Source: Dehalococcoidia bacterium
GTDB lineage: Bacteria; Chloroflexota; Dehalococcoidia; E44-bin15
Assembly (NCBI GenBank): GCA_035528575.1
Contig: DATKYK010000021.1
Coordinates: forward strand, 1-64,000
Reading direction: 5' to 3'
DNA length: 64,000 bases
Positions 25,227 through 38,440 of the stretch are shown one piece after another. The notes under the pieces were generated by a model. That model had not been told where the DNA came from, made no database searches, and saw only the letters and a program-made list of their open reading frames with translations. Numbering within the stretch: the first letter of the stretch is position 1; every line of letters starts with the position of its first letter. Position numbers and translations under genes: made by a program.

Positions 25227-25315
25227 ACTCCATATTATATTGTGCTTCGCCTCTTGCTGTCCATCTTCACCATTATCCTTGACAGTACTACGGGGGCAAA
25301 CTAAAATAGGACTGC

Positions 25316-25354
25316 GCCGAGGTAGCTCAGGTGGTAGAGCAGCGGACTGAAAAT
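25316..25354 (+). repeat. Truncated 5' half of tRNA-Phe (attL of element 1)
   Basis: 39 bases (40 with the preceding C) are identical to the 5' half of the intact tRNA-Phe at 33217. Similarity stops in the anticodon loop (CTGAAAAT). This is the chromosomal half left after insertion and cannot fold as a tRNA. Confidence 0.9.
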
Positions 25355-25708
25355 TCTGGGTTAGTTGTGCCGAAGCGTGGTGTCAGATATAAAATAGAAC
25401 TATTGTGTTAATTGTCTAAACCCCGTTTTATAGCTAGAGTGCTTTTTAGTACCAACCAGTTCTTTTCAGTTTAACGCCAAATTAACGCCAACTTTTTAGC
25501 TTCGGTTCCAACGTTAGCCTATGGTATAAAAAAGAGGGGCCAACCATTTAAGGTAGTCCCTCGTTATATACTTGGATATAACTTGCAGTTTACATTTCTG
25601 TAATTTCCCGCCCTAAGCCCCTCAGTCGTAGCAGGTACACCATGATTCATACCCTAAGTGACACTATTCTTTCAATATACACCTTAACAAAATAGTATAA
25701 ATCAAGTC
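25355..25708. other. Left end of element 1 with putative integrase arm sites
   Basis: Contains two TTAACGCCAA-type repeats at 25471-25497 that recur at 33175-33199 beside the other attachment half. No gene is supported in these 350 bp. Confidence 0.6.
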
Positions 25709-27100
25709 TCATGGAGTATTTGTCCCGATAGTGAAGTTACTTATTACCCAGACGTTGTTATCCGGCCCACCTGTAGTGGACGGATCGAAAGCAATCAGAC
25801 GCCATTCATAAGTTTCACCTTCACTCAGAGGGTTTCCTGTTCCATCAAAGTTATAAGCTACAGAGGTACTTTCCTTTGCCAGATACACAGACCACATGTC
25901 GTTACCTTCGCTATCGATAACCCAGATCCTATAATATCCTTGACAACCACACAATGGAGGTTGCCATGAAAAGGTTGGTGTCGGCGTATCTAAGATCTCC
26001 CCATTTGCAGGCGATATCGGCATAGGGAAATCTACAAGAGTATCCCGCACAGAAGCGGTAGTAGTCTGCGATGTACCATCACTGTAACTCAGACTGAAGG
26101 TGTAGACATCACCGGGGGTAGGTATTGTTTCACCAAGGAATGCTCCGCCATACCACGGATAATATTCTGTGGGTCCTTCACTATAGAGGTCAATAGTGCC
26201 AATATATGGGCCGGTCACACTCGCTGTGGTGATAGTTACTCCTTCAGGGATTAAATCCCATACATAGAAATCTAGCCCATAACCCTGGTCTTGTATATGA
26301 ATCGTACGAATCAATGGCTTTTCTTGCTTACATTCACACCTTTTAGCTATCCATAAACCGCTATCATTAGTGTAACCCATGTAGCTATAGGTTCCTTTTA
26401 TCTTATTTGGATATACGGTGGCTGACGCCGAAAAGTTAATAGCTTCTCCGTAGTACAATCCCTGCCCCAAAATGTTCAAATTATTGCCATAGAGACTACC
26501 ATGTACCGATATGGAATATTCATAGTTCCAGAGCAGATAGTAAATGTATGACCCTATTTGGTGGATGTAGAAGCAGTATGGCTCACTTTCCTCTCCACCT
26601 TGAGAGGTCATATACAGATACCAAATGCCTGAGATATCCTGAAAGTGCTGTTTGCCTATTACCCTGATAATGTCTCTACCTTCAAAGGTAATGCTGTTGA
26701 CTTCTCCAGCTATTGTTACCTCTACTTGTTCACCAGGGGTGAGTATGCTCTGAACTTCAGACCTATCAAACTTGACCATCAGGTCTGGGACTCCATCCTT
26801 GTCATAGTCGCCAATATCGGTGGGTTTTGATTCTGCGCACACTATTCCATTGAATCTCACAGTCGAGACGTCGATCTCTTCAACATCGTACCCCGTTAGC
26901 AGCTCGATATAGACAGTAACCCATTTGCCATTGCTTCCTAGATTGAGTGTGTCCGGATCAAAGTCTATTGTTGCTGGTATGATCTGATTTATCTCAGTTT
27001 CTGGTAGGCTGTCCGCCCGGGTTGACTGGGGTGCTATCACCACCATAATGGAGCCCAATACCAAAACAATGGCTAAAGAAATAAAAACTAGATTTCTCAT
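25709..27100 (-). CDS. Secreted multidomain protein with FN3-like C-terminus (element cargo)
   Basis: 463 residues with a signal peptide ending near STRADS. First comes a domain of the type ATIDFDPDTLNLGSNGKWVT with a Ca-binding-like loop (DYDKDGVPDLMVKFD), then a middle beta region (about 145-330) and a C-terminal fibronectin III-like domain (PISPANGEILDTPTPTFSWQ). Such proteins are exported and probably surface-bound; no enzyme motif is visible. It lies inside element 1, so it travels as cargo. A dispersed repeat sits 46 bp upstream. Confidence 0.75.
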   Translation of the reverse strand: MRNLVFISLAIVLVLGSIMVVIAPQSTRADSLPETEINQIIPATIDFDPDTLNLGSNGKWVTVYIELLTGYDVEEIDVSTVRFNGIVCAESKPTDIGDYDKDGVPDLMVKFDRSEVQSILTPGEQVEVTIAGEVNSITFEGRDIIRVIGKQHFQDISGIWYLYMTSQGGEESEPYCFYIHQIGSYIYYLLWNYEYSISVHGSLYGNNLNILGQGLYYGEAINFSASATVYPNKIKGTYSYMGYTNDSGLWIAKRCECKQEKPLIRTIHIQDQGYGLDFYVWDLIPEGVTITTASVTGPYIGTIDLYSEGPTEYYPWYGGAFLGETIPTPGDVYTFSLSYSDGTSQTTTASVRDTLVDFPMPISPANGEILDTPTPTFSWQPPLCGCQGYYRIWVIDSEGNDMWSVYLAKESTSVAYNFDGTGNPLSEGETYEWRLIAFDPSTTGGPDNNVWVISNFTIGTNTP

Positions 27101-27145
27101 GGCTTTACCTCCTAGTATGGTTCTAGCTAGTTTATATCCAATTCT

Positions 27146-27366
27146 ATGTGAATCCTCAGTCTTGCCCGTATGTGATTGTGGCTATCTGCAGGAAGCGCGC
27201 CTGGCGAAAGGCTCATATCGATAATAACATAAGATGCGCCATTTGTCTGTCGGGAAAGTATGTATTTATTGTGGGGAAAGTCTGTATTTTTTGTTGTGGG
27301 GAAAACCCTTACAAAAATGGGAAATATTGTAGGGAGGCCTTGACACAGGTCAATACCGTAGTGCGG
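27146..27366 (+). repeat. Dispersed repeat, copy B
   Basis: About 220 bp closely similar to 2117-2334, same orientation. Here a 93-codon frame (27148-27429) happens to stay open, but copy A has stops and indels in the matching frame, so coding is unlikely. Internal short repeats of the form GTATGTATTTATTGTGGGGA occur in both copies. Confidence 0.7.
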
Positions 27367-27444
27367 AATGGCGAGCTTAAGGATGCGGGATGGCAGGATA
27401 CTCCAGGGGTGATAGCCTGTCAATATTGAGGAGAACTTAATGTT

Positions 27445-27675
27445 TTATAAGCCGCCGTTGGCCAATTGATAACCTATGGCGTCATTCACGTAAATAACGA
27501 TGGTGTCCCTTCCTTCCCAGTCAGGATGTTTAGCCTTATAGTCAGCAATTGCCGCTTCCCGTTGTGCCTCGGTAGGCTCCGGCTGCCCCTCGTATAGCAC
27601 CCATCGTATAGGCTGCTGCTTACCAGCTCCGGTGTGCTTTTCTAGCTTCTCGATTCTGCTGACGATGTTACTCAC
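27445..27675 (-). CDS. Small hypothetical protein of element 1
   Basis: 76 residues starting MSNIVSRIEKLEKHTG, a short amphipathic helix, then a mixed domain with PEPTEAQREAAIADYKAKHP. The start overlaps the previous stop by 4 bp. Phage-like small acidic protein; function unknown. Confidence 0.6.
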   Translation of the reverse strand: MSNIVSRIEKLEKHTGAGKQQPIRWVLYEGQPEPTEAQREAAIADYKAKHPDWEGRDTIVIYVNDAIGYQLANGGL

Positions 27676-27983
27676 CGTGAACCTCCCAAAACTTTATTCT
27701 CCAGGTTGTTTAACCTTGCCTCCAGGTCGGCTACCTCTACAGCCTTTAGGCCAATAGATATTAGATAGCCGGCAGTCCTAGAGCGCATAAAAACGTCACC
27801 CTCTTTAGTCTCCAGGACTTCTTTTATCAGGCCCGCCAGGACAGTCAGCAAGGCGTTTGCCGTTCTAATTTCCTCTAGTGAACTCACCCGTATAACTTTG
27901 AACCCTACAGCCTCACCAGCTCGCCTCGAACGCTGCCATTGTCTCTGATATTCCTTTTGTCTCAGAGGGTCTTTATATGGCAT
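27672..27983 (-). CDS. Small hypothetical protein of element 1
   Basis: 103 residues. The basic start (MPYKDPLRQKEYQRQWQRSR) resembles DNA-binding tails of phage small proteins. A hydrophobic helix follows, then a heptad-like C-terminus (ADLEARLNNLENKVLG). It overlaps both neighbours by 1-4 bp, so it is co-transcribed. No family recognised. Confidence 0.6.
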   Translation of the reverse strand: MPYKDPLRQKEYQRQWQRSRRAGEAVGFKVIRVSSLEEIRTANALLTVLAGLIKEVLETKEGDVFMRSRTAGYLISIGLKAVEVADLEARLNNLENKVLGGSR

Positions 27984-28753
27984 TATTCGTGTAACCTCAC
28001 AGCGCCTAAGTTAAGGCAATTATTCTTATGCCTGGAGAGGGTAGAACGTGAGACATTAAACTCAGTTTCTATATCTCTCAGGCTCCGGCTATTCTGTAGA
28101 GCCTTATTTATTTCCGCTACCTTCTCATGGTTACACACCCGGCAGTTTAGCTCTACTTCAGATGTCTCAGGCTCATTGTCGAGTAGTAAGCTATCATCCG
28201 TTGGCTGTGAATAGGCCGTCATGTATCCTTTACGGAAATTAGCCAGAATACCAATACACGCCTCAAAGTAACGGAGAGCTTCGCTAGCCTTGCCAAAGGA
28301 ACGTTCACCGGGTGCCGTCATTTCCAGTGTAGGACACTTGAAGTCCTGGGGTAGTAGCTGTATAGGAATACCCCGCATGTCACCTTGAAACGGCCCTGAA
28401 TCGTTATAGAGATAACATTCGCCAGGGTCCCGCTCCCAGGAAGCCATTCCCATTTTAGCCAGTTCCTTTACCGGCTCTATTAACGCCAGCAATTGCGGAA
28501 GTATGTTATCACGGGACGTTAGGAATCTGTCTATCGCTTCCCCCTGTTTTTTAGCCTTGACCTTGACCGCCTCGGCTCGGTCTCTTAGGGCTTGGCGCTG
28601 CTCTGCGATTTTCCTTAGCTCTTGAACCTCAACCTGAGCCGCTATCTCAGCCCGCACCCTGGCAAGCTGTCGGGTCAATTCGGAAACGTCCTCTCCGGCC
28701 TCAATCTTAGCTACGATTTGCTTTTGTATTGCCTTAATTGTGTCTGTTGTCAT
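27983..28753 (-). CDS. Phage-like protein with C-terminal Cys-rich helix-turn-helix
   Basis: 256 residues. The N-terminal 75 are a charged coiled coil (KQIVAKIEAGEDVSELTRQL). The middle is uncharacterised. The C-terminus has NCRVCNHEKVAEINKALQNS followed by LRDIETEFNVSRSTLSRHKN, a zinc-knuckle plus HTH layout common in phage and plasmid DNA-binding proteins. A role in element replication or packaging is plausible but unproven. Confidence 0.65.
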   Translation of the reverse strand: MTTDTIKAIQKQIVAKIEAGEDVSELTRQLARVRAEIAAQVEVQELRKIAEQRQALRDRAEAVKVKAKKQGEAIDRFLTSRDNILPQLLALIEPVKELAKMGMASWERDPGECYLYNDSGPFQGDMRGIPIQLLPQDFKCPTLEMTAPGERSFGKASEALRYFEACIGILANFRKGYMTAYSQPTDDSLLLDNEPETSEVELNCRVCNHEKVAEINKALQNSRSLRDIETEFNVSRSTLSRHKNNCLNLGAVRLHE

Positions 28754-28883
28754 GTTATCACCTCTCTTTTAGTTTTGGTGGCCCCTAGTAGGGGAGAAAT
28801 AACCCAGGAGGCCGGATACTGGAGTATGGAAACCTCCAGCACCCTATTTCTTGAGCTGCGACCCCCTACCAGTAGGCCATACC

Positions 28884-29105
28884 TCATTGAAGCCACTCCT
28901 GTTTATCCGGGGGAGCTTCGCCGGTCACAAATATCTCGACCTGCTCCGGAGTAAAGTCGGGCCTTGCCTTGCGAATTGACTCCCGTAATGCCTCCCTGTC
29001 AGCCGGGTTAGACATATTCAGGTTGCGCAACCCTGCCAGGAAGTACTCTTTTTCCTTACCTGAAAGCCCCTCTAGAATCTTGCTATTGATCTCGTCAATT
29101 TTCAT
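28884..29105 (-). CDS. Small hypothetical protein of element 1
   Basis: 73 residues, acidic and helical (MKIDEINSKILEGLSGKEKE), with a GAGGTAAAGA-type site before ATG 29105. No recognised domain. Position between the HTH protein and the origin-like region suggests an element-maintenance role. Confidence 0.55.
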   Translation of the reverse strand: MKIDEINSKILEGLSGKEKEYFLAGLRNLNMSNPADREALRESIRKARPDFTPEQVEIFVTGEAPPDKQEWLQ

Positions 29106-29188
29106 GTTCTTTACCTCCTATTTATACCTATCATAGAACTATTAAACCGCTGCTTTCACTCGTAACTTTACCGTCCCTCAAAGCTAAC

Positions 29189-29345
29189 TTGGCGTTACAG
29201 TTGGCGTTATTTCCTAAGAAACGGACACTTTGTCCGCCCTGTCCGCACACATTGTCCGTTAGCATAACTGTTATATAACACCCTGTTACGGTGTTACGTA
29301 ACATAACAGGGGGGGATATATAATATCCCCTGTTACGGTACACTG
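29189..29345. other. Origin-like region: direct repeats and nested hairpins
   Basis: Directly after the ATPase gene. It holds two TTGGCGTTA motifs (29189-29209), four GTCCG or CGGAC repeats (29222-29260), a hairpin CCCTGTTA/TAACAGGG with inner GTTACGTAAC (29281-29311), a second hairpin GGGGATAT/ATATCCCC (29312-29330) and further CTGTTA copies. The density suggests an iteron-type origin or operator; termination after the ATPase gene is an alternative. Confidence 0.45.
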
Positions 29346-30566
29346 TTATGCCTCTTGTTTTAAGCCCCATGATTCCCCTACCTTAATGAGATAACCCTTT
29401 TTGCTTAGGCGATTGGTTATAGTTCTAACGCTCGCTTCGTTCGCCTCTAAGGCTTCGGCGATTTCCTTCACTGTTAGCGCACCGCCTCGTAGCAAGTCCT
29501 TAATTCTCAGCGATAGCGGTAATTCACCGGATAGCCCGGTATCTCTCAAGTCAGCTTTCACCACTGTTATGCTGTTATCGGTAAACGTGAATCTATAACC
29601 TAGTGGCGGGTGTAGCCTCGATAGATTAGCCTTAGTGTGTTTTAGGCTGATAATGGCTTCGTCCTCTCCGGTCTCCTGCTCTGCCCTACACTCCCAAACC
29701 GACCTTGCCAGATTCGTAAAGAATACCGAGCCGAATATCGTTCGTCTTTTGGTGAGCTGGTCTTTTGAAGTGTGAGCTAAAGTCAAGCTAGTTACCCCTA
29801 GCTGACGTAGAGCTGCATGGTATTTTATAGCAGGCTCCGGGTCGTTAAGATTACCCCTGGCTGCCGGACCCAAACTATCAACTATAATCAGGCTGATATT
29901 CTTATCGTGTATGATTCGTTGAAGCTGCTCTATTGAATCGCTGAGAGTGCCAGTCATGCGTCTATAGAGTATTGGCATAGCACCCTTGCCAAAACCCTTC
30001 TCAAGAGCACTCCAGCGCCTTCTAAAACTGCCAGCATCGTCTTCATAGTCCAGATATAGGCACAAAGTAGACTCAGTTCGTGTAATAAGCCCCAGGTCAT
30101 TATCGTGGTAGGGAAGTTGGACTATATAGCCAATTACCAGGGCGGCTAGACTTTTTAGTGAGCCATAATCCCCAAAGATAACAGCTGGGTGATTCATGTA
30201 TAGAATAGGCTCTAGTAGGTAGTCTGGCGTCAGATTATCATTTTCACTCGGCCAGATTTCAATTGCCGGCTCACCTCTGCGGGCAATCTCTAAAGTCTTA
30301 CCAGTAATGAAGGTCAGAATGTCAGTCCAGGGTATGTCTGCGGAGTTCTTTTCTAACCTCTTGACCAGGCTAGTCATTGTGGGTGTAGCCATGAGGTTGA
30401 CCCGTGTGGTGTGTAGCAATGATTCACTTGACCCATTTCCTGAATAGAATGACAATTCGGCATAACCATCGTCTGTATAGCGCTCTGCTAATACCCGCAG
30501 ACCTAGCTCTGACCAGGCATAGTTGATAAAGCCAATACCTTCGGTTACAGATGGGTTAGGCTTCAT
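29346..30566 (-). CDS. RepA-like AAA/RecA-fold ATPase with C-terminal winged helix
   Basis: 406 residues. After an N-terminal region (to about 110), the P-loop FGDYGSLKS, acidic strand LYLDYEDD, Walker B LIIVDSLG and LTLAHTSKDQ match plasmid RepA/phage helicase-loader ATPases. The last 60 residues (LTVKEIAEALEANEASVRTI, TNRLSKKGYLIKVGESW) form a winged helix. It probably unwinds or primes the excised element. Overlaps the next gene upstream by 4 bp. Confidence 0.8.
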   Translation of the reverse strand: MKPNPSVTEGIGFINYAWSELGLRVLAERYTDDGYAELSFYSGNGSSESLLHTTRVNLMATPTMTSLVKRLEKNSADIPWTDILTFITGKTLEIARRGEPAIEIWPSENDNLTPDYLLEPILYMNHPAVIFGDYGSLKSLAALVIGYIVQLPYHDNDLGLITRTESTLCLYLDYEDDAGSFRRRWSALEKGFGKGAMPILYRRMTGTLSDSIEQLQRIIHDKNISLIIVDSLGPAARGNLNDPEPAIKYHAALRQLGVTSLTLAHTSKDQLTKRRTIFGSVFFTNLARSVWECRAEQETGEDEAIISLKHTKANLSRLHPPLGYRFTFTDNSITVVKADLRDTGLSGELPLSLRIKDLLRGGALTVKEIAEALEANEASVRTITNRLSKKGYLIKVGESWGLKQEA

Positions 30567-30907
30567 AGTTTCACACCCTCAGCCAGCTTAGGCTTTTGCC
30601 GTACTCTAAACTCGTTGCCAGTATTGCCCCAGCGCTTGATTACCTCAGCTCCGAGCTTGGCTACCCTTTCCCGTAACCAATGGTCACCCTGCAGCCCCCA
30701 CAAGAGCGGACGCAAGGCATATAGTTCGTCCGTTAGCTCGCCATCCTCTAGACTGGGAATATCTAAATGGTAAAACCTTGCATATTGCTGGTCACTAGAG
30801 AGGGGATCAGGGATCAAAACGTCTCTAGTCACTCTCATTCCTCTTTTGAGATTTACCCGATAGCAATGCCTCGACAGATCGGCGGCTAACGCACATTCTC
30901 TTTTCAC
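30563..30907 (-). CDS. Hypothetical protein of element 1
   Basis: 114 residues without a recognised motif, overlapping the ATPase start (ATGA) and the upstream HTH gene by 83 bp. Because of that large overlap the true start may be the internal ATG at 30838 (MRVTRDVLIPDP). Probably co-translated with the ATPase. Confidence 0.5.
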   Translation of the reverse strand: MKRECALAADLSRHCYRVNLKRGMRVTRDVLIPDPLSSDQQYARFYHLDIPSLEDGELTDELYALRPLLWGLQGDHWLRERVAKLGAEVIKRWGNTGNEFRVRQKPKLAEGVKL

Positions 30908-31028
30908 CGATAAAAATTACTTCTACGGGTAGCTTATTCTGCCGGGCCAAACGAAACGCCAAATTCCTAGAGCATCCGGTAGCCTCGGCAAATTCCGGGA
31001 TTGTCATAGTCAAACACTCAGTCTCCAT
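30825..31028 (-). CDS. Excisionase-like helix-turn-helix protein
   Basis: ATG 31028 is chosen because GGAGGGGGAAG precedes it; the longer frame overlaps the XRE gene. The 67-residue product has TMTIPEFAEATGCSRNLAFRLARQNKLPV followed by a wing (EVIFIGEKRMCVSRRSVEALL), the MerR/Xis-type HTH_17 fold. Candidate directionality factor for the element 1 integrase. Confidence 0.7.
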   Translation of the reverse strand: METECLTMTIPEFAEATGCSRNLAFRLARQNKLPVEVIFIGEKRMCVSRRSVEALLSGKSQKRNESD

Positions 31029-31251
31029 CTTCCCCCTCCGTAGTCTCCAAGCTTGCCTTGAGTTGGGGCCATAATGTAGTCTCACTCACGCCCAGGGCAG
31101 TTGCTAGTCGGCTGCGCACTCCCGCCGTTGGGTAGTGATTTAGCCGCTCAACTATAATAATAGTGGCCCGTGAGCAATGCGCCGCTTCTGCTAACCCCAC
31201 TTGGCTGAATCCGAGTCGCCTTCGTAACATTCGCAAGTTATTTTTTCTCAT
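31018..31251 (-). CDS. XRE-family transcriptional regulator
   Basis: 77 residues, almost entirely a Cro/C1-type HTH: LRMLRRRLGFSQVGLAEAAH, CSRATIIIVERLNHYPTAGV, RSRLATALGVSETTL. It is divergent from the 245-residue gene and the integrase, with 60 bp between, so it probably controls both directions from that region. Its stop overlaps the start of the Xis-like gene. Confidence 0.8.
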   Translation of the reverse strand: MRKNNLRMLRRRLGFSQVGLAEAAHCSRATIIIVERLNHYPTAGVRSRLATALGVSETTLWPQLKASLETTEGEDGD

Positions 31252-31310
31252 TTGTCCCTCTATGTATTGACATTATAAGACAAGCATGATATTATAAATT
31301 TATACGGATT

Positions 31311-32048
31311 ATGAATAGAAAAATATTAGCGGAAATAAACAAGGAAAAAGAAGCCGTCTTAGCCAAACTTGGCAAAGAGTATGAAATGAACATCCCCAGC
31401 AGGGGCCGGGAGGTCATAGATAGCAGTGTAGGCCCTCCAAGCGAAGATGTTGACGGTGATCCTGATTACAGGGACGAGTACCTAGAACGGTACGAAGAAG
31501 TCGCCGGGTTTTACTGCAGGGCATTTAGAGAGGGGCAGGCTAGGGACAATGGCAGGCATCATACGGCGACTGGTGAAAAAAGGGGGCAATATCAGAAGCC
31601 CTTTGAGCGCCGATTGCGCTTGGTGGAGTTTGTAACTGCTAGGTGGGCACGAACTAAGAATAACCACTTTAATTGGATACAGATAGCATCTGAATGGAAT
31701 AAGTTCTTTCCAATAGAGCAAATAAATCCTGAAGTCTTAAGGGTCGAATATAGCCGAGCTATTCGCGAGAATGACCTGATGAGTCATCTATTGGCTATGC
31801 TCTGTCTGAAGGATAGGCAGACAGGTGAAAAACCCTGGGGTAAAGATGAGTTCAAACAATTCTTTCTAGAAACGGCTCTCGACTCCACTAGGAAAGGTGA
31901 GCCTTTATTAAGCCTGATGTATAAACACCGCGTTTTAGGCGGAATGAGTAAGCAAGTCCCAATGAACAAAAAGCGTGTGGATATCGCGCTCTTATTGGCT
32001 AAGAAGTTCCGTGAAATGGACAAAACCGTAAAAGGAGGCACAAAATGA
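31311..32048 (+). CDS. Hypothetical protein upstream of the integrase
   Basis: 245 residues, charged, no recognised family. The N-terminus is a short coiled coil (KILAEINKEKEAVLAKLGKE). The middle has FVTARWARTKNNHFNWIQIA-SEWN, which looks like a DNA-binding three-helix unit. It overlaps the integrase start by 4 bp (ATGA), so it is coupled and may act in recombination control. Confidence 0.6.
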   Translation: MNRKILAEINKEKEAVLAKLGKEYEMNIPSRGREVIDSSVGPPSEDVDGDPDYRDEYLERYEEVAGFYCRAFREGQARDNGRHHTATGEKRGQYQKPFERRLRLVEFVTARWARTKNNHFNWIQIASEWNKFFPIEQINPEVLRVEYSRAIRENDLMSHLLAMLCLKDRQTGEKPWGKDEFKQFFLETALDSTRKGEPLLSLMYKHRVLGGMSKQVPMNKKRVDIALLLAKKFREMDKTVKGGTK

Positions 32049-33216
32049 GAGGATCAATTCGTTCTAAGAGCAAAAACAGCTGGCAGATCCAAATCTATAC
32101 AGGCCAGGGGTCAGATGGTAAGCCCCTGCGCCACTTCGAGACGGTACGAGGTCGAAAGAGTGATGCGCAGCGCCGCTTAACCGAGCTGCTTTCAAGCCTC
32201 GACAAAGGGGCATATGTCCCCACGGGACGCCTTACAGTGGCAGAGCACCTTAACCAATGGCTTGACGGCTACGTTAAGTCTAACTGTCATGTGCGCACGC
32301 TTGACGGCTACCAGTCAATTATAGAGACTCACTTAATACCGGCTTTAGGCCATATTCAATTAAAGCAACTTCACCCTCAGACAATACAGGCATACTACGG
32401 CAAGGCTATCGAAAAGCTATCGCCCAGGACTGTAGCGAAGCATCACCGGCTATTAAGCCAGGTCCTGAAGTATGCCGTCAGACAGGGTTATCTGGGCCGT
32501 AACCCTTGCGAACTTGTGGACTCACCATCTTGGAAAGGTAAGGCCATGCGCACGCTAACACCCGGTGAAGTCGAAGTCCTTTTCGAGACGGCAGAGGGTA
32601 ATTACTATTATCCGGTGATCTATACCGCCGTGAGCACGGGGCTCCGCCAGGCTGAACTGTTGGGCTTGAGATGGAGAGACATTGATCTCGACATGTGTTC
32701 AATATCGGTTAGCCAGGTGCTATATAAGAGGCGGGGCGTATGTGAGTTAAAAGAGCCTAAGACAGCTCACAGCCGGCGACGTGTAGCCATGACACCCAAA
32801 CTAGCCCTATTCCTAAGAGAATATCGAAACGAGAGGGAAGCGATCTACCGTGAACTAGGAAAAGAACTTACTCTAGATGACCTTGTTTTCACCAGTATTG
32901 AGGGGAAGCCGTTAGATCCGTGTGTGCTAACACACAACTTTACCAGAATGGCCAGACGAGCAGGCCTGGAAGGGGTAAGATTCCATGATCTCCGGCATAC
33001 TTTCGCCAGCCTCATGCTACTGCGTGGGGCCAAGCCCAAAGTTATCAGTGAAGCCCTGGGACATGCCAGTGTAGCCTTTACAATGGATACCTATAGCCAT
33101 ATAATTGAGGGTATGCAAGAGGAGGCGATGGGCCTACTGAACGAGGTGTTGCCCGTTGGGGTGTCTCAAAAAAATAACGCCAATTTAACGCCAACTTTTG
33201 ATAGTCTAGCTATAAC

Positions 33217-33226
<10 letters not shown>
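32045..33226 (+). CDS. int: Tyrosine recombinase, integrase of element 1
   Basis: 393 residues in the lambda-Int layout: AP2-like arm-binding start (SWQIQIYTGQGSDGKPLRHF), SAM-like core-binding domain (about 65-150) and catalytic domain with Arg in STGLRQAELLGLRW, HDLRHTFAS, LGHASVAFTMDTYSH (nucleophile Tyr). The stop codon TAG lies inside the tRNA-Phe 5' half, so the gene ends within the attachment site. Integrates at the anticodon loop of tRNA-Phe. Confidence 0.93.
33175..33199 (+). promoter_or_regulatory. Putative integrase arm-type sites at the right end of element 1
   Basis: TAACGCCAATTTAACGCCAA mirrors 25471-25497 at the left end, with matching orientation and spacing. It lies within the last codons of the integrase gene. 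Confidence 0.55.
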
Positions 33227-33289
<63 letters not shown>

Positions 33290-33312
33290 CTTTTGTTTGC
33301 TTAACAATTTGC

Positions 33313-33507
33313 TTAACTTTTCGCATTGGTTTCCCCTTTCTTAAACTTCGGTTTCCTCTTCCTCTTATAGTCCAAGCTTAGTACTACCCAATCATGACCT
33401 AGTTTCTTGCCCTTTATTTCACCTCTTTCTAGCAGCCGTCGACAATGGCTGTCTGAAATTCCCATCTTGTTGGAAGCTTCTTTAACGCTATACACTCTTG
33501 ACCTCAT
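33313..33507 (-). CDS. Excisionase-like HTH protein of element 2
   Basis: 64 residues: MRSRVYSVKEASNKMGISDS, then HCRRLLERGEIKGKKLGHDW and VVLSLDY, an HTH_17/MerR-like fold with a basic Lys/Arg tail. It lies 24 bp inside the left attachment site, next to two TTTGCTTAAC repeats (33296-33317). Likely directionality factor. Confidence 0.7.
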   Translation of the reverse strand: MRSRVYSVKEASNKMGISDSHCRRLLERGEIKGKKLGHDWVVLSLDYKRKRKPKFKKGETNAKS

Positions 33508-33668
33508 TAGGCGTTATACACGATAACGCTTACAATGTTAATATTCTGACTGCAAAACCCCCCATCATATGTAAAAGAATTTCAAATAAAGCAGTTAATG
33601 TATTCCGCAAGCGTATCGGTTGATAATGCGACTACGGCTCTGTTGATCATAAAAGGAAGCCAAAAGCA

Positions 33669-33797
33669 TTGACAATCACTATATATTGTGGTACTATTAC
33701 CGAGTACACACAATATAGTGTGACTTCTTGCTCTAAAGAGGATGAGGTACTGGAAGAAGTGCTTTTGGAGATCGCTACGAGGAGGTCGAAGGAGTAA
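33669..33797 (+). CDS. Small ORF of 42 residues upstream of the membrane protein
   Basis: TTG start with AAGGAAG about 9 bases upstream; the product begins MTITIYCGTITEYTQYSVTS and ends in an acidic helix (EDEVLEEVLLEIATRRSKE). It stops 3 bp before the next ATG and contains that gene's ribosome site, which suggests coupling. The same DNA could instead be a promoter (TTGACA, 17 bases, TACTAT), so coding is uncertain. Confidence 0.4.
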   Translation: MTITIYCGTITEYTQYSVTSCSKEDEVLEEVLLEIATRRSKE

Positions 33798-33800
33798 ACT

Positions 33801-34073
33801 ATGCGGGTTTTAGGTCGCACTCTACTTGTCATCCTGATGGTCATCGGTGTTCTTCTGGTTGCGGCAGGTACAGCAAGCATTGTAGGAGCTGATAGTTGGA
33901 CTGGCCAGATAGATTGGACTGGCCCAATAGATGATATTAACATTGTCCCTGGAGTTTTCAAGGAAGCTGGGGATGGGGGAGTGGCTCTGGGAGTAGTACT
34001 ATTGGCAGCCAGTATTATAACAAACCTAAGACCCACTGACTTTTTAGGTGTGGAGATAGGGTTTAGTGACTGA
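33801..34073 (+). CDS. Small membrane protein of element 2
   Basis: 90 residues with an N-terminal helix (LLVILMVIGVLLVAAGTA) and a second one (GGVALGVVLLAASIITNL). The loop is duplicated: DSWTGQIDWTGPIDD. A GAAGGAG site precedes ATG 33801. No family is recognised. It could be a holin-like or immunity-type membrane protein, but nothing proves it. Confidence 0.6.
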   Translation: MRVLGRTLLVILMVIGVLLVAAGTASIVGADSWTGQIDWTGPIDDINIVPGVFKEAGDGGVALGVVLLAASIITNLRPTDFLGVEIGFSD

Positions 34074-34450
34074 CAGGAAACTCACTATTAAGTCACCAAA
34101 GAACCGAGGATCAGTAAAGAGCACTGATGGTAGGAAGGCTGCAGGACTTGCCCGTAGGTTCTTTGCCTGTGGGGACTAGCTCGACATCCGGCCAACCTGC
34201 ATTCTTATATTAGTAGCACAACCACACATTCCAATGCTGTAACTACTTCATGAACGCACAACACTTCCGTATGTAATCTACCGCATTATTGCCACGCAAA
34301 ATCCCTTCATCCCTTCTACGTGAATTAAGGGTACTTTGTTCAGTCTAGTTCTGTTAGCTGTTAACGCAGTAACAAACTGACGAACTGTTAAACACCTAGC
34401 GAACCGTTGACTATCCTGCTGCCAACCGATAAGCGGGTTAGCTGGCATTA
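34074..34450. other. Intergenic region, nothing recognised
   Basis: About 375 bp between the membrane protein gene and the convergent methyltransferase gene. Open frames here lack ribosome sites and family resemblance. Confidence 0.4.
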
Positions 34451-35056
34451 TTATTCTTTCTTTATACACAGACAACTTTGGAAAAGCCCCACATACATCT
34501 TTCTTTTGTCAACCACACGAAATCCAGATTCTTCTAAACCCTCAATAAATTCTGGTGGCTCAAATCTAGACTCCTTGGAATGATGAATCTTGAAATAGCG
34601 CTCTATACCATCCAAGCCCTTCTTATTTGGTTCCTGAACTAAGAGAACACCGCCAGATTTAAGTACTCTGTTTATCTCTTTAAGAGCAGTACGCCATTCT
34701 GGTACATGATGAAGAACATCAAATATAAACACAGCATCAAATTTCCCAGAAGGAAGTTTAATATCCGTCACGTCTCCAACAAATATATTTGCCGATAGGC
34801 CTCTTTGCTTAGCAAGTTCAACCTCTTCTGGCATAATATCGAATGCGAAAAGCTCTTTGGGTTGAAGCTCCTGCATTATTAGCTCTGAGCTATAACCAGA
34901 ACCACAACCAACATCTAATATCACTTTATTGGTTAAATCAATATGATTCTTTCTGAGGTATTCCTTAAAAGCCCTAAACTCATAATGTCTTTGGAAGAAT
35001 CCCCTCAATGAAGTATTCACAAGCCTTAATTCTTTTTTGTCTATCGCTTCGTCCAA
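34451..35056 (-). CDS. Class I SAM-dependent methyltransferase
   Basis: 201 residues with motif I VILDVGCGSGYSSELIMQEL, FAFDIMPEEVELAKQRG, and DAVFIFDVLHHVPEWRTALKEINRVLKSGG, the UbiE/methyltransferase-11 layout. The target is unknown. It is the only enzyme carried by element 2 apart from the integrase, so it could modify a product of the small-protein array or DNA/lipid of the host. Confidence 0.85.
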   Translation of the reverse strand: MDEAIDKKELRLVNTSLRGFFQRHYEFRAFKEYLRKNHIDLTNKVILDVGCGSGYSSELIMQELQPKELFAFDIMPEEVELAKQRGLSANIFVGDVTDIKLPSGKFDAVFIFDVLHHVPEWRTALKEINRVLKSGGVLLVQEPNKKGLDGIERYFKIHHSKESRFEPPEFIEGLEESGFRVVDKRKMYVGLFQSCLCIKKE

Positions 35057-35541
35057 AGTAATCTCCTAATTCTAATAACGTTTAGCGGCGAAATTCCCCA
35101 ACTTAAACTTTGTATTATCTACCGTAGTTATGACGGGTCCTCGATTATACATCTAGCCAGAGTGAAATGGAATAGCACTGTCTCTTTACAAGAAACCTTA
35201 AATTCGTATTAGCCGGAGTTAAGCCCAGCCAGGCGGATTGGGAGACCGCTTGTCATAAGAGGTATAAGAGTATTATTGTTCACACAGAGTATTTGAAGGA
35301 AATAACTGAGAGGACACGATAGCTTGTTCTGAGATGCCCCTAGCGATACCGGGATAGGTATGGTTCGCCGCTGGGAGTGGAGAACCCTGGCGGCGGAAGG
35401 ATTTTTACATGTTCGGGAAAGCCCCGACGAGCGTAGCAGGCTTGACAAAAAGCCTTTCTTGTGGTAGAGTTTCCACAGGCTGTCGTGCTGGCACCGGTCG
35501 ACGGCGGGAAATAGCAACAGTAACATACGGGTGGGGACGAC
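35057..35541. other. Non-coding region with terminator-like hairpin upstream of the array
   Basis: Contains a diverged copy of the array terminator near 35370-35408 (GCCGC...GCGGC stem, then ATTTTT). A hairpin-rich stretch with AAGCCTTTCTTG/CACAGGCT follows. Cys-rich and Pro-rich frames on the minus strand are not supported. Confidence 0.45.
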
Positions 35542-35609
35542 GAGGATTCACACCGGCAACAGAATATAGGCATAGTAGGTGTGGCTTTATCGTTTGCCCC
35601 AAGAGAAGG

Positions 35610-35652
35610 ACCTTCGCTCGGGGTGGAGAACCTTGGCTGCGAAGGTTTTTTA
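35610..35652 (+). terminator. Terminator within R1
   Basis: An 8-bp stem ACCTTCGC/GCGAAGGT with a 21-base loop and a run of six T. It stands before the mini-ORF, so it could end upstream transcription or act as an attenuator for the array. Confidence 0.65.
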
Positions 35653-35717
35653 ATTAGATAAGGCTCCACAAAGACTCAGTTTGTCATTTTCTATACATCG
35701 TATCGAGAAGCAGTTAA

Positions 35718-35822
35718 ATGAGAGAAAATCGGGGGAATAAGGATATAAGTAGTTCACTGGGAGAGCTGAATGGCTTAATCGCAGGGCGGGGGATTGTGAT
35801 GATCTTAGACCAAAGAGCGTGA
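35718..35822 (+). CDS. Array mini-ORF a1 (34 residues)
   Basis: Starts MRENRGNKDISSSLGELNGL and ends IAGRGIVMILDQRA; it stops 8 bp before small-protein gene 1. The same frame is kept in a3 (36887), and its core NGxIxGxGIV also recurs in a2 (36389). The ribosome site is weak. Conservation of frame supports coding, but these are recent repeats, so the evidence is moderate. Confidence 0.45.
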   Translation: MRENRGNKDISSSLGELNGLIAGRGIVMILDQRA

Positions 35823-35830
35823 GATAAAAA

Positions 35831-36025
35831 ATGACAAGTTTTATTCAAGCTATTGTAGATACGCTCTTAATCCTCGGCCAGATATCATTGGACCTAATTG
35901 GTATGCTGGAAGGCAACCTGACGGCTCTGATCAATGGATTAATAGCTTGGATATGGATACTAGCCGGAATGATTTATGATGCCGAAGCCTTGCTGGAGAA
36001 GGGTATAACGCTGATAATTAGCTAA
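35831..36025 (+). CDS. Array small hydrophobic protein 1
   Basis: 64 residues: an amphipathic, almost Arg-free helical protein. Shared core with the other three: LDLIGMLEGNLTALIN, then AGMIYDAEALLEKGITLIIS. No signal peptide, no Cys. Net acidic. Not a family I recognise; size and amphipathicity recall membrane-active peptides, but that is inference. Followed by the repeat TAAGTGCACAATTGCGGATA. Confidence 0.65.
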   Translation: MTSFIQAIVDTLLILGQISLDLIGMLEGNLTALINGLIAWIWILAGMIYDAEALLEKGITLIIS

Positions 36026-36133
36026 GTGCACAATTGCGGATAGATTTCAAAGCGCCTGGTCCTAAGCTGGGGATTGACAGGGGTTGATAGTCGTGCACAG
36101 ATGTCGTACAGATACCAGAGGGGGTGAGCCCGG

Positions 36134-36328
36134 GTGAATTCTCTGTTTAACGAAACGGTGGCAAGTTACTACCTTCGCAAGCAGATGTTATTGGACCTGA
36201 TTAGTCTGCTGGAAGGCAACCTGACGGCTCTGCTCAATGAAACGATAGATTGGGTATCGATACTAGCTGGGGTGCTTTACGATGTCGAAGCCTTGCTGGA
36301 GAAGGTCATAACGATGCTGATTAGCTAA
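36134..36328 (+). CDS. Array small hydrophobic protein 2
   Basis: 64 residues, GTG start with AGAGGGGG upstream. Core: LDLISLLEGNLTALLNETID, WVSILAGVLYDVEALLEKVI, ending TMLIS. Paralogue of 35831-36025 with differing N-terminal 16 residues. The mini-ORF that should precede it is broken by stops (around 36070-36100). Confidence 0.65.
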   Translation: MNSLFNETVASYYLRKQMLLDLISLLEGNLTALLNETIDWVSILAGVLYDVEALLEKVITMLIS

Positions 36329-36388
36329 GGGCACAATTGCGGATAGATTTCAAGGATTCACACCGACAACAGAATACAGGCATAGTAG

Positions 36389-36496
36389 ATGAATGGCTCT
36401 ATCGCAGGGCTGGGGATTGTGACTATCGTGCACAAATGTAGTACAGATATAAAAATGAATCCTGAGTTCGTAGACGAGGGGGGTGAGTCCAGGTGA
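36389..36496 (+). CDS. Array mini-ORF a2 (35 residues)
   Basis: Starts MNGSIAGLGIVTIVHKCSTD, keeping the NGSIxGLGIV core of a1 and a3 but with a different tail. Its stop overlaps the GTG start of small protein 3 (GTGA), which would couple the two. Confidence 0.4.
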   Translation: MNGSIAGLGIVTIVHKCSTDIKMNPEFVDEGGESR

Positions 36497-36687
36497 GTTC
36501 TTATTTGTCAGCAACGGTGGACATTTACTTAATTTGCAAGCAGCTGTTCTTGGACATAGCTGGTATGCTGCAAGGCAACCTGACGGCTCTGCTCTATGCA
36601 ACGATAGATTATGTAGCGTTAGAAGCCGGAGTAATTTACGATGGTGAAGCCTTGCTGGAGAAGCTCATAACGCTGCTGATTAGCTAA
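36493..36687 (+). CDS. Array small hydrophobic protein 3
   Basis: 64 residues, GTG start with GAGGGGGG upstream. Core: LDIAGMLQGNLTALLYATID, YVALEAGVIYDGEALLEKLI, ending TLLIS. Same length and C-terminus as proteins 1 and 2; N-terminus again differs. It contains one Cys (ICKQ). Confidence 0.65.
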   Translation: MSSYLSATVDIYLICKQLFLDIAGMLQGNLTALLYATIDYVALEAGVIYDGEALLEKLITLLIS

Positions 36688-36778
36688 GGGCACAATTGCA
36701 GATAGATTTCGAGGATTCACACCGACAATAGAATATAGGCATAGTAGGTGGGGCTTTATCGTCTGCCCCAAGAGAAGG

Positions 36779-36820
36779 ACCTTCGCTCGGGGTGGAGAAC
36801 CTTGGCTGCGAAGGTTTTTT
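36779..36820 (+). terminator. Terminator within R2
   Basis: Same 8-bp stem ACCTTCGC/GCGAAGGT and T run as in R1, located after small-protein gene 3 and before mini-ORF a3. Confidence 0.65.
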
Positions 36821-36886
36821 AGTTAGATAAGGCTCCACAAAGGCCCATTTTGTAATTTTCTCTACATTGTATCGAGAAGCCGTAAA

Positions 36887-36988
36887 ATGAGAGAAAATCG
36901 GAGGGATAAGGATATAAGTGATTCCCTGGGAGAGCTAAATGGCTCAATCGTAGGGCTGGGGATTGTGATAATCTTAGACGAAAGATGA
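36887..36988 (+). CDS. Array mini-ORF a3 (33 residues)
   Basis: Starts MRENRRDKDISDSLGELNGS and ends IVGLGIVIILDER, 11 bp before small-protein gene 4. Differences from a1 are substitutions only, with no frame break over the whole length. Confidence 0.45.
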   Translation: MRENRRDKDISDSLGELNGSIVGLGIVIILDER

Positions 36989-36999
36989 TGAGATAATAA

Positions 37000-37239
37000 A
37001 TGGTTTCTTTATATATGGGTTTTTTAACTTTTATGGGTTTTATTGCTGCTGGCGCTGCTCATGAAATAGTCGGCGTGCTCTACATCGTCAAGCAGATATT
37101 ATTGGACCTAGCTGGTCTATTGGAAGGCAACGTGACGGCTGTGCTCAATACCACGATAGATTGGGTATCGGCACTAGCCGATGTTCTTTATGATGTCGAA
37201 GCCTTGCTAGAGAAGGTCATAACGATGCTGATTAGCTAA
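37000..37239 (+). CDS. Array small hydrophobic protein 4 (extended)
   Basis: 79 residues: an extra hydrophobic N-terminal segment (LYMGFLTFMGFIAAGAAHEI) precedes the common core LDLAGLLEGNVTAVLNTTID, WVSALADVLYDVEALLEKVI, TMLIS. The 3' flank matches that of copy 1 (AAAGCGTCTGGTCCTAA), so copies 1 and 4 share more ancestry outside the gene. Confidence 0.65.
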   Translation: MVSLYMGFLTFMGFIAAGAAHEIVGVLYIVKQILLDLAGLLEGNVTAVLNTTIDWVSALADVLYDVEALLEKVITMLIS

Positions 37240-37404
37240 GGGCACAATTGCGGATAGATTTCAAAGCGTCTGGTCCTAATCAAATATGAATGCAAATTAA
37301 GGGTAACCCACAACCGACCTATGTGTACACGAGGAAATTGGCAGCTATCTCGGATGCTTAGACAGCCCCCCTTTTACACAACCCCCTATTTTCACTACTG
37401 ACTT

Positions 37405-38436
37405 TCACCCCAATCGTGGCTTATAAAACTTCAGGCTATCCTCAAATGTAACCGACCTGGTATATCTTTGTACCATCTCCAATGATTCCCATCTGCCCGG
37501 GTCTTTGATGGTCATAGTATCTACCCCTGCCTTGCGCAATAGGCAAGCAAATGTCCTGCGGAAGGTGTGAGGGTTGCAGGGCCAGCCTGTTTCCTTTTCT
37601 AACCTACGCAGCATAGAGGTAATACCCCACTTATTCATGCCCCAGATATTGCCATCGGGTTGATACTGGGCAAGCCATTCCCTAAGATACTCTTCTGATA
37701 GCTCACCAAAAGGAGCATAGGCTTCCTTCCCCCCTTTGCCCAGCACCTTGATAACCCTGGATTGCCAGTCAATATCGCCTTTATTGATGTTGGTAAGCTC
37801 AGATAATCTCAGGCCCGACTCGGTGAAGAGGGTAATTATTGCCTTGTCCCTAATGTGGTTAGCTTTGTCGATTAGCGGCTCAATTTCTTTTCTGGTTAGA
37901 CTGGGCGATATCAGCTTGGGAACCATAGGGGCTTCCACCCAGATTACGGGGTTATCCTTGCTCTTAAGGTCATAACCTGACTTTGGTCTATAGAGCCAGT
38001 TATAGAATACCCTTATCGCTCGGAAGTAAGCGTGTTTTCTGCCTGGAGAACAATCCAATGAGTTGAGAAAAGTGTTTATTCTACTGGGAGTCGGGGTTAG
38101 TCCCAAAACAGGAATCGCTCTGGTTAAGTATGGCTTGTAAAAGTCATCTGTTGTCCTCGGCGATATTCCATTTCTTCTAGATTCTAAAAAGAGGTCAATT
38201 GCCTTTTGAGCGTTGGCAACACCTCTCCCTTTGTTGGTGGTATAATAGTAATCCGTGAGTGCTTGGAGTAGTCTACTGGAAGGTGGTCGCTTGCCATTCT
38301 TAACCTGGGAGATATAGGATTTGCTTAAATTGCTTAACTCTGCTATCTGTGAAACAGACAATTTGTTAAGCAGTTTAGCTGTGTCTAAGCGGACTGAAAA
38401 TCCGCGTGTCGGCGGTTCAACTCCGCCCCTCGGCAC
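37405..38436 (-). CDS. Tyrosine recombinase, integrase of element 2
   Basis: The N-terminal part (about residues 26-65) is an XRE-like HTH (LSVSQIAELSNLSKSYISQV). Then come a SAM-like core-binding domain (about 75-160) and the catalytic domain: Arg in ESGLRLSEL, Lys in LGKGGKE, HTFRRTFA, Trp in PGRWESLEMVQ (replacing the usual His) and RYT with the nucleophile Tyr. The frame stays open antisense through the tRNA 3' half to GTG 38436 (MPRGGVEPPTRGFSVR). That start depends on att sequence; TTG 38361 is an alternative. Confidence 0.88.
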   Translation of the reverse strand: MPRGGVEPPTRGFSVRLDTAKLLNKLSVSQIAELSNLSKSYISQVKNGKRPPSSRLLQALTDYYYTTNKGRGVANAQKAIDLFLESRRNGISPRTTDDFYKPYLTRAIPVLGLTPTPSRINTFLNSLDCSPGRKHAYFRAIRVFYNWLYRPKSGYDLKSKDNPVIWVEAPMVPKLISPSLTRKEIEPLIDKANHIRDKAIITLFTESGLRLSELTNINKGDIDWQSRVIKVLGKGGKEAYAPFGELSEEYLREWLAQYQPDGNIWGMNKWGITSMLRRLEKETGWPCNPHTFRRTFACLLRKAGVDTMTIKDPGRWESLEMVQRYTRSVTFEDSLKFYKPRLG

Positions 38437-38440
38437 TTTT
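38388..38440 (+). repeat. Duplicated 3' half of tRNA-Phe (attR of element 2)
   Basis: 53 bp identical to 33242-33294, from the anticodon arm through the acceptor stem and TTTT. It lacks the 5' half and is not a functional tRNA. This is the original chromosomal 3' end. Confidence 0.9.

Follow-up and report, generated by a model that had tools for sequence, protein, structure and literature searches.

The window (the whole stretch of DNA analyzed, 64,000 nucleotides of a Dehalococcoidia bacterium) contains a tandem-repeat array, spanning 35831-37239, with four genes (A to D) for small proteins, referred to here as miniproteins. The array and the features around it are as follows:

33217-33290, plus strand: tRNA-Phe (GAA), target of two integrative elements
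33242-33294: 53-bp attL-type repeat formed by the 3' part of tRNA-Phe, with an identical copy at 38388-38440
33313-33507, minus strand: probable excisionase next to attL, an HTH_17 protein (PF12728, 1.2e-4, under the curated cut-off)
33801-34073, plus strand: 90-aa predicted membrane protein, cargo, with a homologue in the C32 sister element
34451-35056, minus strand: SAM-dependent methyltransferase, cargo (PF08241, 2.4e-24)
35278-35716, plus strand: block sharing about 80% identity with intergenic DNA in the C17 CFI-box cluster (sequence comparison)
35442-35470, plus strand: sigma-70-type promoter TTGACA-17-TAGAGT, conserved in leader copies of the same subtype
35512-35656, plus strand: leader RNA before gene A, with an intrinsic-terminator-like hairpin
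35831-36025, plus strand: gene A, ORF of 64 aa
36134-36328, plus strand: gene B, ORF of 64 aa, GTG start, Shine-Dalgarno GGGGGTGAG
36353-36402, plus strand: part of a leader, joined onto the tail of gene B (sequence comparison)
36493-36687, plus strand: gene C, ORF of 64 aa, GTG start, Shine-Dalgarno GGGGGTGAG
36681-36825, plus strand: second leader copy, before gene D, without the promoter and the P1 5' strand, terminator hairpin kept
37000-37239, plus strand: gene D, ORF of 79 aa, lengthened near the N-terminus by an in-frame insertion of 45 nt
37405-38436, minus strand: HTH and tyrosine recombinase, the integrase of the element (PF00589, 1.2e-25)
38388-38440: attR-type repeat, 53 bp

Genes A to D are located inside a 272-nt repeat present in four copies (67-82% identity), and the array also has a 293-nt repeat in two copies (90% identity), in agreement with the original prediction of four tandem paralogous small-protein genes in repeated DNA. 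The matching 3' flanks that it described were also found, as a 25-nt sequence (GGGCACAATTGCGGATAGATTTCAA) following the stop codon in 4/4 genes, where chance would give no matches. The terminators that it had assigned to these flanks were misplaced, the terminator-like hairpins being in the leaders before A and D. The product of gene D is longer than the others (79 versus 64 aa) because of its single in-frame insertion, and the Shine-Dalgarno sequences of genes A and D are weakened or degraded.

The array had been thought to lie on an integrative element, whose borders are now mapped. The 53-bp att repeats, the integrase and the excisionase-like HTH protein indicate that the array is carried by a 5.2-kb tRNA-Phe integrative element (33242-38440). 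Relatives of its integrase, with 53-63% identity, are present in many genomes of the class, and homologues of the excisionase-like HTH protein occupy the same place in related elements. The 5' part of the tRNA-Phe gene (33216-33255) is repeated exactly at 25315-25354 (40 bp). Since the 3' and the 5' parts of this gene are each repeated, two elements flank it, and their att repeats overlap at the anticodon region. The second element, which adjoins this gene at its 5' side, extends over 25315-33255, with its integrase at 32045-33226.

Sister elements, intact or decayed and with their own direct repeats, were found on contigs C9, C32 and C40 of the source genome and in other genomes. Those at L067:5882-9588 (C9) and L068:5256-7718 (C32) are stacked or decayed, with direct repeats of 53 to 62 bp, and the decayed C32 element carries a homologue of the 90-aa membrane protein (74% over 81 aa) with a leader RNA in front of it. 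A reading of the cargo of other elements that have related integrases revealed no miniprotein gene. The cargo differs among sister elements, which shows the array to be cargo and not a core part of the element. The methyltransferase gene of the element (34451-35056, minus strand) also gave a PADLOC mad2 match (1.1e-20), which covers part of the model only. The element resembles the small tRNA elements of Islander-type or tycheposon-like organization in its tRNA target, its direct-repeat att sites, the position of integrase and excisionase-like HTH at opposite ends and its exchangeable cargo, but it has only 5.2 kb and an HTH fused to the N-terminus of the integrase. To our knowledge, cargo of the miniprotein kind is not known on small tRNA-targeting elements.

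The miniproteins had been described as belonging to no recognizable family, and the profile searches upheld this. Pfam gave no match for A, B and C and a chance-level match only for D. No miniprotein relative was found in PHROGs, NCBIfam (which gave nothing of note), PADLOC or PDB sequences, or among genome contigs, viral contigs, phages and plasmids. Single-protein and profile searches of 197 relatives, including 13 other genomes of the same family, also detected no relative; there is no other species of the source genus among the relatives listed. No family member was found in 393 genomes of the class or 400 of the phylum (the sets overlap), and the handful of matches, with E of 0.03-0.09 per genome in about 200 genomes, were at chance level. 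One family of the class has genomes of 1.4-1.9 Mb, several of them closed, and three of these gave 19 to 30 reductive-dehalogenase matches each, which marks the class as probably Dehalococcoidia; the source genome gave no such match. These searches indicate that the miniproteins form a new, previously undescribed family, confined to one genome among those searched. The original prediction had proposed looking for the reading frame in other genomes; the source genome keeps it in a fifth copy, whereas no other genome searched has it.

The fifth copy (E, 64 aa) is dispersed, on contig C28 (L009:8834-9028), and is the only further copy in the whole genome (2.3 Mb, 45 contigs). It has the same 64-aa frame, a good Shine-Dalgarno/ribosome-binding site and no flanking repeats. 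Except for a few bases at the ribosome-binding site, copy E and the array have no common DNA beyond the ORF at the sensitivity used, which places the homology boundaries at or inside the reading frame. The existence of this copy elsewhere in the genome suggests that the miniproteins are really made. A decayed integrase fragment (PF00589, 1e-11) lies upstream of copy E; another such remnant next to this copy was not supported. No complete leader is present upstream of copy E. A weak leader-like match was observed upstream on the opposite strand (L009:8646-8744, minus strand, 12.9 bits, E=0.006).

The ratio dN/dS, which the original prediction had proposed as a check, was near 1 overall across the five copies (0.5 to 2; codon analysis), an unfavorable value that hides a purified C-terminus. 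In codons 45-64 of the five copies dN/dS was 0.06-0.75; in codons 1-44 it was about 1 or more and the purifying signal was absent. Compared with the consensus, codons 45-64 showed 17 synonymous and 14 non-synonymous changes, where neutral change would give 27% synonymous (p=0.0017), and the synonymous excess was also evident when the remaining codons of the ORF served as reference (p=7e-6). The p-values of these and the following tests on the copies are approximate, because they come from five sequences and a star-like consensus. Codons 1-18 were strongly divergent with a ratio near 1, and codons 34-44 among A to D had few synonymous and many non-synonymous changes. No ORF region besides codons 45-64 departed significantly from neutrality and dN/dS above 1 was not individually significant anywhere, so that change in the N-terminal half could reflect relaxed constraint and not a drive to diversify.

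Neutral simulations, matched to the number and kind of changes seen in the five copies, left every one of the five frames open in 0.85% of trials (p=0.0085) and gave five proline-free copies in 0.3% (p=0.003), with open frames and absence of proline together in 0/4000. A Lys+Arg total as low as that observed was obtained in 0.9% (p=0.009). The open frames and the constraint on the C-terminus indicate that the five ORFs are real coding genes.

The identity between A and D was 96% in the leader and 87% in the rest of the 5'UTR, against 57% in codons 1-18 and 77% in codons 19-64. The divergence of the ORF was thus about threefold higher than that of the 5' non-coding flank (p=0.0005). Because the ORFs diverge more than this flank, and in line with the dN/dS of codons 1-44, we infer that the peptide family diversifies, as originally proposed. 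Synonymous sites likewise diverge more than the flank, and therefore recombination exchanging older ORF alleles is as possible as positive selection.

The five miniproteins have no proline, a net charge of -4 to -6, a single Arg in total and GRAVY values of 0.72 to 1.48. Their best 19-residue hydrophobicity mean (1.5-2.0) is marginal for a transmembrane helix, and, by inspection only, no copy shows a basic n-region or a signal peptide. Over the full length, hydrophobicity has a period of 100 degrees in 5/5 copies (permutation p <=0.0008 in four and 0.016 in one), and in simulations this helical periodicity was kept no better than under neutral change from the consensus (fraction at or above the observed value, 0.30). 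AlphaFold2, run on the five-sequence alignment, gave a single helix over residues 2-63 (mean pLDDT 85, pTM 0.45). The miniproteins are predicted to be helical; the single-helix model is weak evidence, and the thin alignment informs neither oligomeric state nor topology.

The block at 35278-35716, upstream of gene A, has at its start the degraded final codons of a CFI-box gene. The C17 module contains, in this order, the last codons of the CFI-box gene, a first hairpin of terminator-like form, the promoter TTGACA-TAGATT and a leader ending in a second hairpin and a T-run, and the CFI-box model NF041770 was matched in the C17 cluster, including the downstream genes. On this comparison, the array took over a promoter-leader module from the intergenic DNA of a CFI-box cluster. 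The order leader-A-B-C-leader-D suggests one transcription unit with terminator-like hairpins before A and D. The miniprotein genes thus share a promoter-leader module with the CFI-box-CTERM proteins (NF041770) of the source genome, although the CFI-box domain model does not match the miniproteins themselves. Exported clusters with a CFI-box (NF041770) C-terminus and a stereotyped signal peptide were observed at L027:7297-14897 and L028:301-1536, and CFI-box clusters include beta-helix-like, leucine-rich-repeat and other exported proteins.

A covariance model of the leader, built from 11 copies, gave about 20 matches in the source genome, four and one in two sister-genus genomes, and no match across 57 further genomes. 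Leader copies are located at 35512-35656 and 36681-36825 (plus strand), at 2015-2155 and 27059-27184 (minus strand), and also in L027, L028, L029, L030, L068 and L085-L105. Most genes behind the leader start with the signal-peptide-like MKAKIVY...VVVPAGPAMA; for two sister-genus copies the next gene resembles, by sequence, an acyl-CoA carboxylase subunit. In 23 copies the leader structure had 90% standard pairs and 25 cells changed on both sides; these and the covariation score exceeded all 500 shuffles, in an alignment fitted to the structure and therefore favoring the covariation result. The covariation is located in the basal helix, and no Rfam family matches the leader. We regard it as a candidate cis-regulatory RNA. 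A mutually exclusive antiterminator pairing was not above shuffled sequence in most copies, and riboswitch action is therefore not claimed. Downstream of one leader copy, in C18, a c-di-GMP-II riboswitch match below threshold was observed (L029:522-606; 41 bits, gathering 53.5).

The reading that we favor, tentatively and with a probability of about 0.38, is that of a new family of amphipathic, membrane- or surface-active helical miniproteins with a constrained C-terminal and a variable N-terminal half, made together in the manner of phenol-soluble modulins (PSMs). Each miniprotein would be one continuous proline-free, acidic and strongly hydrophobic amphipathic helix, and A to D would be read as a unit from one promoter. 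The last 20 residues (AGVLYDVEALLEKVITMLIS), which are under selection, would probably form a fixed contact, through which the miniproteins would either self-assemble or dock to a partner or a membrane. Residues 1-44 would be free or pushed to change, as long as this part remains helical with little Pro, Lys and Arg. The miniproteins may be exported and may act at a membrane or cell surface, by binding to it or assembling there, several variants together. The leader counts in favor of this explanation, since it otherwise mostly precedes genes for exported proteins; the lack of an exporter or transporter gene in the element counts against it. Our confidence in the membrane or surface reading is low, partly because the distribution of the family is narrow.

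The staphylococcal PSMs are encoded by a PSM-alpha operon of four genes and a PSM-beta pair, and they have no signal peptide. They are amphipathic alpha-helical peptides of 20-25 or 43-45 aa (PMC12607899). The miniproteins are likewise small paralogues, predicted to be amphipathic and alpha-helical, encoded by tandem genes and probably produced together. Unlike PSMs, they have 64-79 aa, are borne on an integrative element in another phylum and have no known exporter, and no Pfam or NCBIfam match to any described PSM family was found.

An immunity or anti-phage role had also been proposed. The miniproteins could be membrane-associated agents of intracellular immunity or interference, guarding the element or the host from related elements or phages and diversified by an arms race. 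Such a role would fit cargo of a compact element type that is frequent and stacked in the class and in this genome, as well as the position of copy E near a decayed integrase fragment and a diversification focused on the ORF. We consider it unlikely: none of the five miniproteins has a PADLOC match, the adjoining cargo is not a recognized defense system, no effector lies alongside, and sister elements with related integrases carry other cargo and no family member.

The derivation of the block upstream of gene A from a CFI-box-cluster intergenic module, with NF041770 in the genes downstream of that module, points to another role, in which envelope accessory, structural or chaperone-like miniproteins would partner the CFI-box exported proteins having the same promoter-leader. 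The module, on the other hand, may have been captured merely as a promoter, copy E has no complete upstream leader, and the miniproteins are neither fused nor adjacent to an intact CFI-box gene, which makes this partnership quite improbable.

We hold it equally doubtful that the array is a decaying repeat family of little present function, once coding, amplified by unequal recombination and now drifting. The whole-ORF dN/dS close to 1, the restriction to one genome, the degraded Shine-Dalgarno sequences of A and D and the leader fragments fused onto gene tails are what such drift would leave. Selection on the C-terminus, the open frames, the absence of proline and the low Lys/Arg content argue against it, as do the in-frame insertion of gene D and an ORF more divergent than its flank, where a pseudogene would be expected to diverge about equally.

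In the Ldr/Rdl arrays, long direct repeats stand in tandem, and every repeat has a long 5'UTR and a small ORF for a hydrophobic peptide. These type I toxin-antitoxin arrays are reviewed in PMC8309996. The miniprotein array has the same three features, and its products could be type I toxin-like hydrophobic peptides, controlled by a 5' leader that is long and structured and perhaps also by an antisense RNA. An antisense promoter is, however, not conserved per repeat: a single weak minus-strand promoter-like match is present, in gene B only, and is not kept in C. The miniproteins are also acidic and about twice as long as Ldr-type toxins, and the leader is of a genome-wide class common to unrelated, ordinary exported proteins. 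This explanation is very unlikely. A similarly slim chance is given to a mobile variable-miniprotein system, in which paralogous single-helix proteins with a constant C-terminal part and an N-terminal part under diversifying selection would be expressed together from a captured promoter and a regulatory leader RNA, would be spread by a minimal tRNA-targeting element and would serve cell-cell or element-element recognition or antagonism. A retroelement template-repeat reading was weakened because, in a DNA search of the source genome, the diverged copy E was the sole further match to the ORF part.

The miniproteins are a coding and, as predicted, structured family without a database relative, of a type overlooked by gene callers and profile libraries, with the conserved and the variable half clearly separated. 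The leader, present in about 20 copies in one genome and mostly ahead of exported-protein genes, is a new regulatory RNA candidate. If active, the miniproteins would provide Dehalococcoidia with surface-active peptides from a source that is small and mobile.
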